This document shows positions 43,428 through 47,524 of a stretch of DNA of 64,000 nt, piece by piece. The stretch comes from Streptomyces capitiformicae (GTDB lineage: Bacteria; Actinomycetota; Actinomycetes; Streptomycetales; Streptomycetaceae). Numbering within the stretch: position 1 is the stretch's first letter; each line of letters opens with the position of its first letter. Where the stretch lies: positions 3,285,767 through 3,349,766 of the forward strand of contig NZ_CP022161.1 of assembly GCF_002214185.1 (NCBI RefSeq), written 5' to 3'. The notes under the pieces are model-generated. The model was not told the DNA's origin and made no database searches. It saw nothing but the letters and a program-made list of their open reading frames with translations. The position numbers were made by a program, and so were the translations under genes.

Positions 43428-44060
43428 TTGGGCCAGGTACGGCAATCCCGACGCGTACGGGTGCACGACGAAGAACTGGGCGCGGCAGTCGCGCGGGCCC
43501 AGGACGGTGACGAGGCCGCGTTCGCGGTCGCCTACCGGATCGTGCAGCCGGGCCTGCTCGGCTATCTGCGCGGGCTCGTCGGCGACGAGGCGGAGGACGT
43601 GGCGTCCGACGCCTGGCTGGAGATAGCCCGCGACCTCGGACGGTTCAAGGGCGACGGCGCCGGGTTCCGCGGTTGGACGGCGACCATCGCCCGACACCGG
43701 GCGCTGGACCATCTGCGCCGCCAGCGCGTACGGCCCCGCGCGGGAGGGAGCGAACAGGAGGTACTGGACCTGCCCAGCCCGCACAACACGCATGAGCAGG
43801 CCCTGGAGTCCCTCTCCACCGAACGGGCCCTGGAACTGGTCCGCGGGCTGCCGCGGGACCAGGCCGAGGCCGTCCTCATGCGCGTCGTCGTCGGCCTCGA
43901 CGGCCCCTCCGCCGCACGCGTCCTCGGCAAGCGCCCGGGAGCGGTGCGCACCGCCGCCCACCGAGGCCTGAAACGCCTCGCCCGACAGCTGGGCGTCGAT
44001 ACCGAGACGGAGGACGGTGTGACGGATGAGGCTTCCCGGACGCTGGGGGAGTCGAAATGA
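43428..44060 (+). CDS. ECF RNA polymerase sigma factor
   Basis: This is 210 aa. Sigma region 2 is AAVARAQDGDEAAFAVAYRI through DVASDAWLEIARDLGRFKG and FRGWTATIARHRALDHLRRQ. Region 4 is LSTERALELVRGLPRDQAEA through GPSAARVLGKRPGAVRTAAH. The TTG at 43428 (MGQVRQSRRVRVHDEELG) has GAGGG upstream. A GTG at 43461 is an alternative. Its stop overlaps the next gene as ATGA, the usual arrangement for a cognate anti-sigma or accessory membrane protein. Confidence 0.92.
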   Translation: MGQVRQSRRVRVHDEELGAAVARAQDGDEAAFAVAYRIVQPGLLGYLRGLVGDEAEDVASDAWLEIARDLGRFKGDGAGFRGWTATIARHRALDHLRRQRVRPRAGGSEQEVLDLPSPHNTHEQALESLSTERALELVRGLPRDQAEAVLMRVVVGLDGPSAARVLGKRPGAVRTAAHRGLKRLARQLGVDTETEDGVTDEASRTLGESK

Positions 44061-45016
44061 ACAACGACGGTGACATGTCGGCCAGGCAAACGTCAGGCCC
44101 CGTACACCGGATGAATCCAACCGGTCGGACAGGAACGGAAGCGGACATGGGTGAACGGCTGAGCGGCGGCGGAGTTCCAGACCGTCGGCGTGCGCACCCA
44201 GGCGGCGCCGCGTCCGGCCCGCGGTACGTGCGTGACGCCGCCGCACTGGAAACGGCGCTGGCTGCCGCCATACGCGGAGGCGATCTCGACCCCGAGGCCG
44301 AACAGCGGGCCATGGCCGCCTTCCGGGCCGCCCGCGGCGCGCACGCACACCGCGCGCGTACCAGGCGCCGGGACGACTGGCGGGTGCCCGCCGAGCGGCG
44401 TGCCGGGCGCCCGGTGAAGATGACGCTCGGCGTGGTCTTCGCCAGCCTCACGCTGGGTGGTGTCGCGGTCGCGGGCATCGGCTCGGCCGGCTCGTCCGCG
44501 GACGGGGCCGACACCAGGGAAACCACGCACCCCTCGGCGACCACCTCGGGCCGACCCGGAGATGGAGCCCCGTCGGCGTCCTCCCGCGGCCCCGCGCCGA
44601 CGGATGGCCCGGCCCGCGCCCAGGACACCCAGGCCCACTGCCGCGCCTACGAGCAGGTCGAGGACCGCGGCAAGGCGCTCGACGCGAGGGCCTGGCAGCA
44701 GCTCGTCACGGCCGCCGGCGGGAAGAACAAGGTCGCCGCGTACTGCGCCGAGCAACTGGCAGGGGCGACAGCCACACCGAGCGGTCGAGGTGCCACGGGC
44801 AACCCCGGCGAGGGCGCCGCAGACACCGGCAACGACACGGCGGGGAGCACCGGCGCCGCCCGCAACGGCACGCCCGGCAACAACTCCGGCAACAACCCCG
44901 CCGACAACCCCGGCGACAACCCCGCCGACAACCCCGCCGACAACCCCGCCGACAACCCCGCCGACACGGACAACCCGGCAGGCAACGGCCAGACAAGCAG
45001 CGGGAAGGGCCAGTAG
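44057..45016 (+). CDS. Putative membrane-anchored sigma partner protein
   Basis: This is 319 aa with an N-terminal cytoplasmic region containing AALETALAAAIRGGDLDPEA. One membrane helix (KMTLGVVFASLTLGGVAVAG) follows. The extracytoplasmic part has a small conserved-looking segment (HCRAYEQVEDRGKALDARAW through AAYCAEQLAG) with two cysteines. The C-terminus is Asn-Pro-Ala-Asp tetrapeptide repeats from 15- or 12-bp DNA repeats at about 44893-44965. It is coupled to the sigma gene. An anti-sigma role is inferred from position, since no ZAS zinc motif is seen. Confidence 0.7.
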   Translation: MNNDGDMSARQTSGPVHRMNPTGRTGTEADMGERLSGGGVPDRRRAHPGGAASGPRYVRDAAALETALAAAIRGGDLDPEAEQRAMAAFRAARGAHAHRARTRRRDDWRVPAERRAGRPVKMTLGVVFASLTLGGVAVAGIGSAGSSADGADTRETTHPSATTSGRPGDGAPSASSRGPAPTDGPARAQDTQAHCRAYEQVEDRGKALDARAWQQLVTAAGGKNKVAAYCAEQLAGATATPSGRGATGNPGEGAADTGNDTAGSTGAARNGTPGNNSGNNPADNPGDNPADNPADNPADNPADTDNPAGNGQTSSGKGQ

Positions 45017-45296
45017 CCCCCGCGCCCGCCGCTCTGCCCCCGCGCCGTTCGGGGCGTGGCGCTCTCGTTCGCCCACCGTACGCATGCACCTGTGACGTTT
45101 GCAGCGTTCATTTCGATCTACAGATCATGGGGAATTTGAGCATTTCTGATGCTTCTGATGTCGAATATGTGAATGAGTCAGTGTGAATGGCGTCGATGTG
45201 CCGACCTTCCCCGAACGCGCCAGAAGTGATGAATTCCTTGCGCACGGAACGCGTGAGGCGCTGCGCACGGGCAGCGTGCGAACTTGGAGGTTTCGA
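45017..45296. promoter_or_regulatory. AT-richer leader of the graspetide locus
   Basis: Between about 45095 and 45200 the GC content falls clearly below the surroundings (GTTCATTTCGATCTACAG, GATGTCGAATATGTGAATG). It contains repeats of CTGATG and GTGAATG. This is the likely promoter region of the RiPP locus. No gene is seen. Confidence 0.5.
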
Positions 45297-45488
45297 GTGC
45301 GACCGTTCACCCTCAACTACGCCCGCCCCAGGGCGCTTCCGACCGTGGTGACGCCCTATCGATTCGACGAGTCGCTTCAACTGAACGTGCTTCCCGACGG
45401 ACGGCTGGCCGTCAGCGATCCGGACCTCCTCCTGGCGGCCGGTACGACGACGTCCACCGCCGGTTCCCAGACGCACTTCGACGACTGA
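45297..45488 (+). CDS. tgmA: Graspetide (ATP-grasp-modified RiPP) precursor
   Basis: This is 63 aa. The leader begins VRPFTLNYARPR, with the FTLNYAR-type motif of the putative ATP-grasp-modified RiPP family, followed by LQLNVLPDGRLAV. The core ends in a hydroxyl- and acid-containing tail (GTTTSTAGSQTHFDD). Ser/Thr hydroxyls and the two terminal Asp residues are the expected partners for macrocyclic ester bonds. The GTG at 45297 has a perfect GGAGG six bases upstream. It lies 14 bp before the maturase gene. Confidence 0.88.
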   Translation: MRPFTLNYARPRALPTVVTPYRFDESLQLNVLPDGRLAVSDPDLLLAAGTTTSTAGSQTHFDD

Positions 45489-45502
45489 CGATCCGTAAGC
45501 GG

Positions 45503-46453
45503 ATGACCGTACTGATCCTCACGTCCGAGGAGGACGTCACCGCCGACATGGTGGTGGCCAAGCTGCACAAGACGGGGGTACCCGTGATGCGGCTGGACCC
45601 TGCCGACCTGCCGGGCAAGGCCGTGTTGTCCGCGGGTTACTCCCATGGCGACTTCAAGGGTCACCTGTCGGTGAACGGACATGTGCTCAGCATCGGCGGC
45701 CTGCGTTCCGTATGGGTGCGCAGGCCCGGCGAGCCGGCCGCGCACGCGCCACACCCCTCACCATGGCTGACCGCCGAGACCCGTCAGGCACTGTTCGGAC
45801 TGCTCTACTCCGGCTCCCCCCGATGGATGAACCACCCGCGCAACGCCGATCAGGCCCGGCTGAAGCCATGGCAGCTGAGGGTCGCTCATCTCAGCGGCTT
45901 CGCCGTACCGCCGACTCTCATCACCACCTCGCCACGCCTGGCACGGCAGTTCGCCGCGGAGCACGAGAACGTGGTGGTGAAGTCCGCCTCGGGGCCGCCG
46001 CCCGGTGACCCCGCACTGGCTCTGCCCACCACCCTGATCGGCCCCGACACGGACTTCTCCGGCGTCGCGGCCGGGCCGGCGCTGCTGCAGCGGTACGTGC
46101 CCAAGCATGCCGACATTCGTCTGACCTGTGTCGGCACCCGGCTGTTCGCCGCTCGGAAGGTGGCCGAACCCGGCCAGGTCGACGGGCGGTACGGCGACAC
46201 CGGGCACGCCTGGGAGGCGGTCCCGGTTCCCGAACGTGTCGGCAAGTCGGTGTACGAGTACGTCGCCCTTGCCGGACTGGCGTATGCCGCCTTCGACTTC
46301 GCGGAGGAGGACGGTATCTGGTGGTTCCTCGAGTGCAACCAGAGCGGCCAGTTCGGCTTCGTCGAACTGGAGACCGGGCAGCCGATCTCGGAGGCGGTCG
46401 CGCTGTGGCTGTCACAGCGCGAGGCGGACCATCGTGTTCCCCAGTTCCGGTGA
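45503..46453 (+). CDS. tgmB: ATP-grasp ribosomal peptide maturase
   Basis: This is a 316-aa ATP-grasp ligase of the RiPP maturase group (TgmB-like). The N-terminal preATP-grasp domain is MTVLILTSEEDVTADMVVAK. The central lysine strand is ENVVVKSASG, and YVPKHADIRLTCVGTRLFAA is the substrate/ATP region. The C-terminal metal site is AAFDFAEEDGIWWFLECNQSG with the E-x-N motif. It should form ester (or amide) crosslinks between core Thr/Ser and Asp side chains. No methyltransferase partner lies next to it. Confidence 0.9.
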   Translation: MTVLILTSEEDVTADMVVAKLHKTGVPVMRLDPADLPGKAVLSAGYSHGDFKGHLSVNGHVLSIGGLRSVWVRRPGEPAAHAPHPSPWLTAETRQALFGLLYSGSPRWMNHPRNADQARLKPWQLRVAHLSGFAVPPTLITTSPRLARQFAAEHENVVVKSASGPPPGDPALALPTTLIGPDTDFSGVAAGPALLQRYVPKHADIRLTCVGTRLFAARKVAEPGQVDGRYGDTGHAWEAVPVPERVGKSVYEYVALAGLAYAAFDFAEEDGIWWFLECNQSGQFGFVELETGQPISEAVALWLSQREADHRVPQFR

Positions 46454-46564: not shown

Positions 46565-47236
46565 TCAGCGGAAGTTCACGTCACTGCACAGGAAGTAGGT
46601 CTGGTCCAGGTGCGAGGCCTGCCAGATCGTGTAGACGACGTGGCGTCCGCTGAACCCCGAAGTGCTCACGGGGATCGAGTAGTTCTGGCTGGGCGCATAC
46701 CTGCCGGTGCGGGCGACCAGCTGGAGGTCACTCCACTTCAGCGGCTGGGTGGTGGGGTCGTAACCCTGCCGCGTGACGTAGACCAGGAAGTAGTCCGCGC
46801 CATGGCTGGCCTGGTCGTACAGCTTCACGGTGAAGTTGCTGGAGATGTCCGTCGTCTTCCACGGACCTGCGGCGTCCAGGGAGTTGTAGCGGCCGCCCTC
46901 GCTGCGACCGCCGCTGCACAGTTGCCCGTCGGGGACAACGGCCTGGAAGTTGCCGGCGGAGCCGTTGCGGTAGAGGCCGTTCCAGTTCCACATGGCGTTG
47001 GCGTCGGCCCGCCATGCCTGCCAGCACATGGGGTCCTGCTGGGCCATGGCCGGGTTCAGGTGGTCGTTGCCCCAGCGCTGCCAGCAGCCGTAGTTGCGGG
47101 ATGCCGGGTCGACGACCGAGCCGTGGGCGACGGCGGTGCCGCTCCAGGGGATCAAGCAGAGAAGCACGGCGGTCAGGACGCTCAGAAGGAGCGTCGGACG
47201 TAAACCCATTCGCATGTCATGATCATGCCAATTCAT
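46565..47236 (-). CDS. Lytic polysaccharide monooxygenase (AA10)
   Basis: This is 223 aa. A signal peptide ends TAVA, leaving H38 (HGSVVDPASRNYGCW) as the mature N-terminus that forms the copper histidine brace. NGLYRNGSAGNF, SEGGRYNSLD and RHVVYTIWQASHLDQTYFLC fit AA10. It is a single-domain enzyme without a binding module. The CebR-type site upstream suggests cellulose rather than chitin as target. The ATG at 47236 has an AAGGA site, and ATG 47215 is an alternative. Confidence 0.92.
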   Translation of the reverse strand: MNWHDHDMRMGLRPTLLLSVLTAVLLCLIPWSGTAVAHGSVVDPASRNYGCWQRWGNDHLNPAMAQQDPMCWQAWRADANAMWNWNGLYRNGSAGNFQAVVPDGQLCSGGRSEGGRYNSLDAAGPWKTTDISSNFTVKLYDQASHGADYFLVYVTRQGYDPTTQPLKWSDLQLVARTGRYAPSQNYSIPVSTSGFSGRHVVYTIWQASHLDQTYFLCSDVNFR

Positions 47237-47302
47237 GAATCCTTCTTCCGGGTGTGGGGGTTGCTTCCGGGTAGCGCTGTGGGGGTGTGGGCACTCTCGG
47301 CG

Positions 47303-47316
47303 TGGGAGCGCTCCCA
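47303..47316. promoter_or_regulatory. CebR-type operator
   Basis: The perfect palindrome TGGGAGCGCTCCCA equals the known binding sequence of the LacI-family cellobiose/cellotriose repressor CebR. It lies 67 bp upstream of the LPMO start and in the divergent region shared with the LVIVD protein gene. Confidence 0.85.
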
Positions 47317-47524
47317 ATGCACAGGCTGCGCCTCTCGCTCCGGCCCGACAACCGGTGGATTGCGCCACTTCTCGCGCCCTTGGCGCGTTCGCCGCGGTGA
47401 CGGTTGGACGCGGTGAATACGATCACGTTAACGCGGCGCCACATCCCTTCCCTCACAGGACTGACACAGACTAAGTTGCCCTGGCTGCCCCCCGCGCCCC
47501 TTCACTCTCAGACCAAGGAGAGCC

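Follow-up and report, generated by a model that had tools for sequence, protein, structure and literature searches.

A two-gene prunipeptin-type graspetide locus of Streptomyces capitiformicae with a conserved core and glutamine at precursor position 58

Does a small ATP-grasp locus without a methyltransferase represent a graspetide locus that has lost a gene, or is it complete as it stands, and what product may then be expected from it? The question is raised by two adjacent genes in a stretch of 64,000 nucleotides (the window; C1:3285767-3349766) of the Streptomyces capitiformicae genome, which comprises 10.99 Mb in a single contig (C1). The first gene (45297..45488 of the window, + strand) encodes a precursor peptide of 63 amino acids, VRPFTLNYAR...GTTTSTAGSQTHFDD, with GTG as start codon at 45297 and a stop codon ending at 45488. 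The sequence GGAGGT, read as ribosome-binding site (45286..45291, + strand), is located 5 nt upstream. After a gap of 14 nt follows the second gene (45503..46453, + strand), encoding an ATP-grasp protein of 316 amino acids. Both reading frames are intact, which confirms the observation of a 63-residue FTLNYAR precursor encoded 14 bp before an ATP-grasp maturase and establishes an intact two-gene Streptomyces locus. Residues 1-49 of the precursor would represent the leader and T50-D63 (TTTSTAGSQTHFDD) the core; the monoisotopic mass calculated for the full-length peptide, including Met, is 6887.50 Da.

The precursor is matched over positions 1-63 of 63 by the Pfam family Strep_pep (PF14404) with 115 bits (cut-off 25), and by TIGR04186 (GRASP_targ) with 42.5 bits, also above the cut-off of 25. 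TIGR04187 (GRASP_SAV_5884) aligned to the maturase along profile positions 1-311 of 312 with 343.9 bits, missing the cut-off of 350 by 6 bits; two maturase paralogues encoded in the same genome exceed this cut-off. The original prediction had proposed comparison with the two TIGR models: the precursor passes, but the maturase, although clearly related to TIGR04187, formally remains below the model cut-off. Among solved structures phmmer ranked PDB entry 9BOU, entitled 'Crystal structure of ATP-grasp ligase PruB from Streptomyces coelicolor A3(2)', on top (382.9 bits), and a profile search also placed it first. The enzyme was modelled with AlphaFold2 (mean pLDDT 84.1, 37 sequences), and a Foldseek comparison of the model with known structures again returned 9BOU first (E 1.8e-39, 56% identity, TM 0.82/0.88), followed by AMdnB, MdnC, CdnC, MdnB and PsnB and, more distantly, by RimK and ArgX. 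The graspetide reading of the original prediction is thus supported by a precursor scoring above the PF14404 and TIGR04186 cut-offs, by the 343.9-bit match of the enzyme to the maturase model and by an enzyme model that fits solved graspetide macrocyclases.

The name PruB points to prunipeptin, encoded by pruA-pruB of Streptomyces prunicolor (MIBiG BGC0002725), which likewise combine a small precursor and an ATP-grasp ligase in a Streptomyces strain. Prunipeptin, published by Unno and Kodani in 2021, reportedly derives from a cluster of just two genes and is closed by an ester and an isopeptide bond, one of each. The locus belongs to the prunipeptin-type graspetides, which have already been named and mined genus-wide. 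It is of a known kind, since the prunipeptin family was named and surveyed (six genera with 3,589 members in total, of which 99.53% fall in Streptomyces, according to the available part of PMC11888242) and Strep_pep is listed among the RiPP families dating to a 2009 analysis (available part of PMC8939145). Labels reading 'prunipeptin', in antiSMASH style, appear in the accessible text of PMC13127372, which adds nothing else on this gene pair, and the accessible portions of PMC10787088, PMC9576775, PMC7794033, PMC6511847, PMC12291112 and PMC13003496 contain nothing on this gene pair. An open-literature text search with the graspetide core strings found no paper, the letters 'thfdd' occurring in three papers with titles on other subjects, and a search with 9BOU as term found none either.

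The pair also recurs as a pair. Confirmed loci of this kind numbered 248, and in 79 of the best 80 by enzyme similarity a precursor of the same kind was encoded directly upstream of the enzyme; in the exception (L057) the match was limited to enzyme residues 99-314. Together with the family-model scores this argues that the gene pair is not a chance combination. Starting from the peptide, a maturase start was found behind 53 of 55 precursors detected by PF14404. Among the closest relatives of the enzyme (best 80 of 248), 79 bore Streptomyces in the record name and one was named 'Actinobacteria bacterium OK074'. PF14404 matches were present in 161 of the 295 genomes sampled within the genus, two per genome in 25 cases (at most 20 candidates scored per genome). 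At the level of the class, 22 of 394 genomes had a match, and these belonged to just one of 137 genera (at most 15 per genome scored). A genus-restricted spread is shared with the prunipeptin family as surveyed in the available part of PMC11888242.

The gene neighbourhood is far less constant. Genes neighbouring the pair in the window recur beside only 5 of 40 closer relatives (L026, L030, L033, L035 and L041). Ten neighbouring ORFs were scanned with Pfam and comprise a glycosyltransferase/deacetylase, a LytR-CpsA-Psr protein, two unmatched ORFs, a sigma-70-type factor, an LPMO_10 protein, an LVIVD/PA protein and, from a periplasmic-binding-protein ABC transporter, three components. No protease, RiPP exporter or methyltransferase was recognized by Pfam among these ten, in agreement with the earlier remark that no protease or exporter is adjacent. 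Two Peptidase_C39 proteins are encoded in the same genome, far from the locus. The LPMO_10 gene (lytic polysaccharide monooxygenase; 46565-47368, - strand) is convergent with the locus, and the ORF at 44057-45016, which has no Pfam match and encodes an NPAD/NPGD-repeat tail, overlaps the end of the gene for the sigma-70-type factor (43428-44060).

With respect to the METHYLTRANSFERASE question, a PIMT-type methyltransferase has been tied to group 13 graspetides (PMC13001092 and PMC13097080, as far as their available text goes). The original prediction noted correctly that such an enzyme is absent from the locus, but its view that a methyltransferase often completes this family of loci did not hold. 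Using the two TIGR04188-like proteins of the genome as probes, no methyltransferase was detected in the DNA of any of the 80 related loci including flanks (best 80 of 248; flank shorter than the length sought in 17). As a control, 30 loci of the kind that does carry a methyltransferase were collected through their resemblance to the genome's other precursor, with about 1.5 kb of flank; the full-length probe, at an unchanged threshold, recovered the enzyme in 26 of 30 and also detected the second, partial methyltransferase of the genome. The absence of a methyltransferase is therefore normal for this family and does not reflect a loss. That second protein (C1:2014020-2014718) is PIMT-like, matching TIGR04188 at positions 1-248 of 363 with 272.7 bits (cut-off 380).

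It had also been suggested that the locus may use a methyltransferase encoded at a distance. The genome indeed encodes one protein, and one only, that passes the TIGR04188 cut-off (C1:4760786-4761856; 461 bits), and in principle this enzyme could carry out the final step on the product of the window locus. However, it is located directly behind a maturase and a precursor of its own, the latter ending in GTSTGTNPATNTGNPSDGAGPGGGGGGDQDTGNDSDQ, in a three-gene locus (C1:4759543-4761856) of a TIGR04186 precursor, a TIGR04187 maturase and the TIGR04188 methyltransferase. This locus is preceded by a reading frame for an ATPase domain resembling that of histidine kinases (HATPase_c_2, 39.3 bits). Furthermore, the window core holds only two Asp residues, both likely ring acceptors, and since a third Asp is lacking neither methylation nor aspartimide formation would be expected. 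In view of this, and of the 0/80 and 26/30 counts given above, the distant enzyme was rejected as a partner; its participation appears highly improbable.

Which residues of the core may take part in ring formation was judged from 328 distinct precursors, pooled from database matches (the 120 best out of 179 in one search and out of 238 in another) and all 55 PF14404-found loci, for which no FDD end was required. Residues T51, S53, A55, G56, S57, T59, D62 and D63 are invariant in 328/328, and H60 and F61 are each present in 327. The variable sites are G49 (317), T50 (321), T52 (310), T54 (321) and residue 58. This conservation is found at the protein level. Comparison of the codons of 81 precursors (the 79 loci, the window and the second copy of the genome) yielded, for core codons 49-63, 13,532 synonymous (27.8%) and 2,324 non-synonymous (4.8%) differences in 48,600 pairwise comparisons, versus 20,038 (29.5%) and 20,397 (30.0%) in 68,040 for leader codons 28-48: the core DNA varies while the encoded peptide hardly does. 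The invariant hydroxyl residues T51, S53, S57 and T59 are candidate donors, with D62 and D63 as candidate acceptors. As four hydroxyls face two acceptors, more than one ring placement fits. Rather than acting as a fast-evolving antibiotic, the prunipeptin-type product is likely to fulfil a role that has stayed fixed and conserved in Streptomyces.

The family divides at residue 58: Lys is found in 196, Gln in 92, Ala in 38 and Arg in 2 of the 328 precursors, and the window precursor carries Gln58. In a tree of 130 maturases one branch, marked by a star, divides the enzymes into 77 whose cognate precursors without exception carry Lys58 (77/77) and 53, including the window enzyme, for which position 58 is Gln in 25, Ala in 24 and Lys in 4. 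Four changes suffice to place Lys and non-Lys on this tree, and 0 of 500 shuffles were as low, a result to which near-copies contribute. In a smaller tree of 106 rows the Lys side was again uniform (61/61). These trees are quick ones, supported by SH-aLRT only; in the larger one five rows have long branches, and two of these belong to the four window-side rows with Lys. Both types occur in the genome itself: a second prunipeptin-type pair (C1:7702588-7703755) encodes an enzyme 59% identical to that of the window and a precursor of the Lys58 type with core and end GATTSTAGSKTHFDD. PruB of S. coelicolor (9BOU) sides with the Lys branch, scoring 564.4 bits to a Lys-branch enzyme versus 382.9 to the window enzyme. 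Of the gene families present in at least six loci, all but the pair itself occur in at most one locus of the opposite branch (crude ORF calling).

Judged by this distribution, residue 58 looks like a required donor on the Lys side and like a free position on the window's side, where the four Lys rows speak for a position that may change either way. If position 58 is the cross-link donor in the Lys branch, as its conservation and the bonds reported for prunipeptin suggest (with Lys also in 4 of 53 window-side rows), and prunipeptin forms its isopeptide through Lys58, the window product cannot have the bonds of prunipeptin. Because it has Gln58 where the sister branch has Lys, a Lys lactam would be lacking, and on the same condition both Asp residues of the window core would go to hydroxyls, or one would stay free. 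The latter case amounts to a single ring, in which half of the chemistry has been lost together with Lys58 and the product is a monocyclic lactone with its second Asp free. The mixture of Gln, Ala and Lys at position 58 on the window's side is what may be expected for a residue outside the rings. However, D62 and D63 are invariant in all 328 precursors, including the 132 without Lys58, suggesting that both are still used, and the single ring is considered unlikely, though worth keeping in mind. A lysine-less prunipeptin line with ester-only rings, in which an invariant Thr or Ser takes over from the Lys lactam, is put forward as a tentative reading at clearly less than even odds. The same tentative proposal regards the genus-wide frozen core as that of a conserved endogenous Streptomyces factor with its own upstream element, and not of a weapon.

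The region upstream of the pair was described in the original prediction as richer in AT than its surroundings, and it is: GC content amounts to 47.7% at 45090-45240 versus 70.6% for the window, with a fraction of 0.0002 of the 150-nt stretches of the window being as low. This AT-rich stretch leads into a conserved block of about 64 bases (45195..45258, + strand), typical of the window's branch and present at the same position in most of the loci L018-L052. With up to 4 mismatches allowed, a 19-base piece of it occurs in 31 of 40 upstream regions (the window and 39 relatives) versus 0 of 400 shuffled sequences; it was not found (at least 6 mismatches) in L030, L040, L041, L047, L048, L053, L054, L055 and L056. 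Most relatives sharing the element do not share the window's neighbour genes. In the Lys58 branch this place is taken by another conserved block, GTAAGGAAACCAACCACCCGTTCGATTCGTATAAG. Inside the window's block lies an inverted repeat, CCTTGCGC / GCGTGAGG (45236-45243 / 45251-45258, + strand), with the branch consensus CCTTRCGC-N7-GCGTRAGG. Upstream regions of the window and 29 of the 39 precursor-bearing relatives were aligned, dropping L024, L030, L041, L047, L048, L050 and L053-L056, nearly all for an absent or diverged element; in these 30 sequences GGAGGT is invariant. The repeat is well kept, with 85.4% of cells paired versus 20-56% for slid versions.

Several readings of this element were tried. 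Covariation expected for an RNA hairpin was not significant, as 39 and 45 of 500 shuffles reached the observed values; for pairs with changes on both sides, 239 of 500 did so. An Rfam scan gave one sub-threshold match only, elsewhere and on the opposite strand. With covariation this weak the hairpin reading was dropped, and the repeat is regarded simply as an element of either DNA or RNA. A regulon built on this element was likewise rejected: a 20-base piece occurs in the genome at the locus alone with 0-2 mismatches and at one further site with 3. An upstream ORF conserved from the ATG of the element was discarded as well, the 54-aa ORF of the window (45187-45351) being out of frame with the precursor and that of some relatives in frame. 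We take 45195-45258 as putative locus-specific promoter or operator DNA. Its conservation, together with that of the ribosome-binding site, also bears on the view that the locus is a decayed relic retained by chance. Such a view could invoke the ten neighbouring ORFs without protease, exporter or methyltransferase and the maturase score slightly below the model cut-off, but both frames are intact and the window core conforms to a family core under strong protein-level selection, which makes chance retention hardly credible.

Taken as a whole, the locus is proposed to make a prunipeptin-type graspetide by the following pathway, to which we assign a probability of roughly 0.9. The leader, with its PFTLNYA motif plus the conserved QLNVLPDGRPAVSD block, would bind the ATP-grasp enzyme, which would activate Asp62 and Asp63 at their side chains and close each of them onto a core hydroxyl. 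One or two ester rings would result (minus 18 or 36 Da), with donors among the invariant Thr51, Ser53, Ser57 and Thr59 and no lysine lactam; the product would carry neither methylation nor aspartimide. An unlinked protease would then cut off the leader, most likely after Gly49. The gene pair, homology, the predicted fold, conservation and the lack of a nearby methyltransferase form the basis of this pathway, and from these we infer the ring positions, the cleavage site and a biological role.

Comparison with characterized systems places the locus more precisely. PruB of S. coelicolor is the closest solved structure to the window enzyme by sequence as well as by fold, but belongs to the Lys58 branch; with Gln58 in the window core, a Lys isopeptide would be impossible. 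The group 13 graspetides or graspimiditides (fuscimiditide, amycolimiditide and albusimiditide), which contain Thr-Asp omega-esters (available part of PMC13001092), share with the window locus an actinobacterial TIGR04187-related maturase. Graspimiditide loci, however, have a PIMT-type methyltransferase and a loop Asp, whereas the window locus has neither; a locus of that type is encoded elsewhere in this genome. The methyltransferase marking group 13 (TIGR04188) was absent from the ten ORFs scanned and from the flanks of the 80 relatives (best 80 of 248). The microviridin-type and related enzymes MdnB/MdnC, AMdnB, CdnC and PsnB appear to share the fold, as modelled, and the leader-guided ATP-grasp chemistry with the window enzyme, but are only 21-28% identical to it in structural alignments and act on different cores. 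Their leader motif, PFFARFL for microviridin (available part of PMC8939145), is unlike the PFTLNYA of the window leader.

The analysis corrects a tempting misreading, that of a graspetide locus which 'lost' its methyltransferase, and places the locus in a small two-gene family. New are the near-frozen core and the position 58 that splits the family into two enzyme branches. The difference between Lys and Gln or Ala, in sister enzyme branches acting on near-identical cores, represents a natural experiment on amide versus ester ring formation by an ATP-grasp macrocyclase. The presence of a near-frozen core in over half of the sampled genomes of a genus that diversifies its peptides raises the question of a fixed function of this peptide in Streptomyces.
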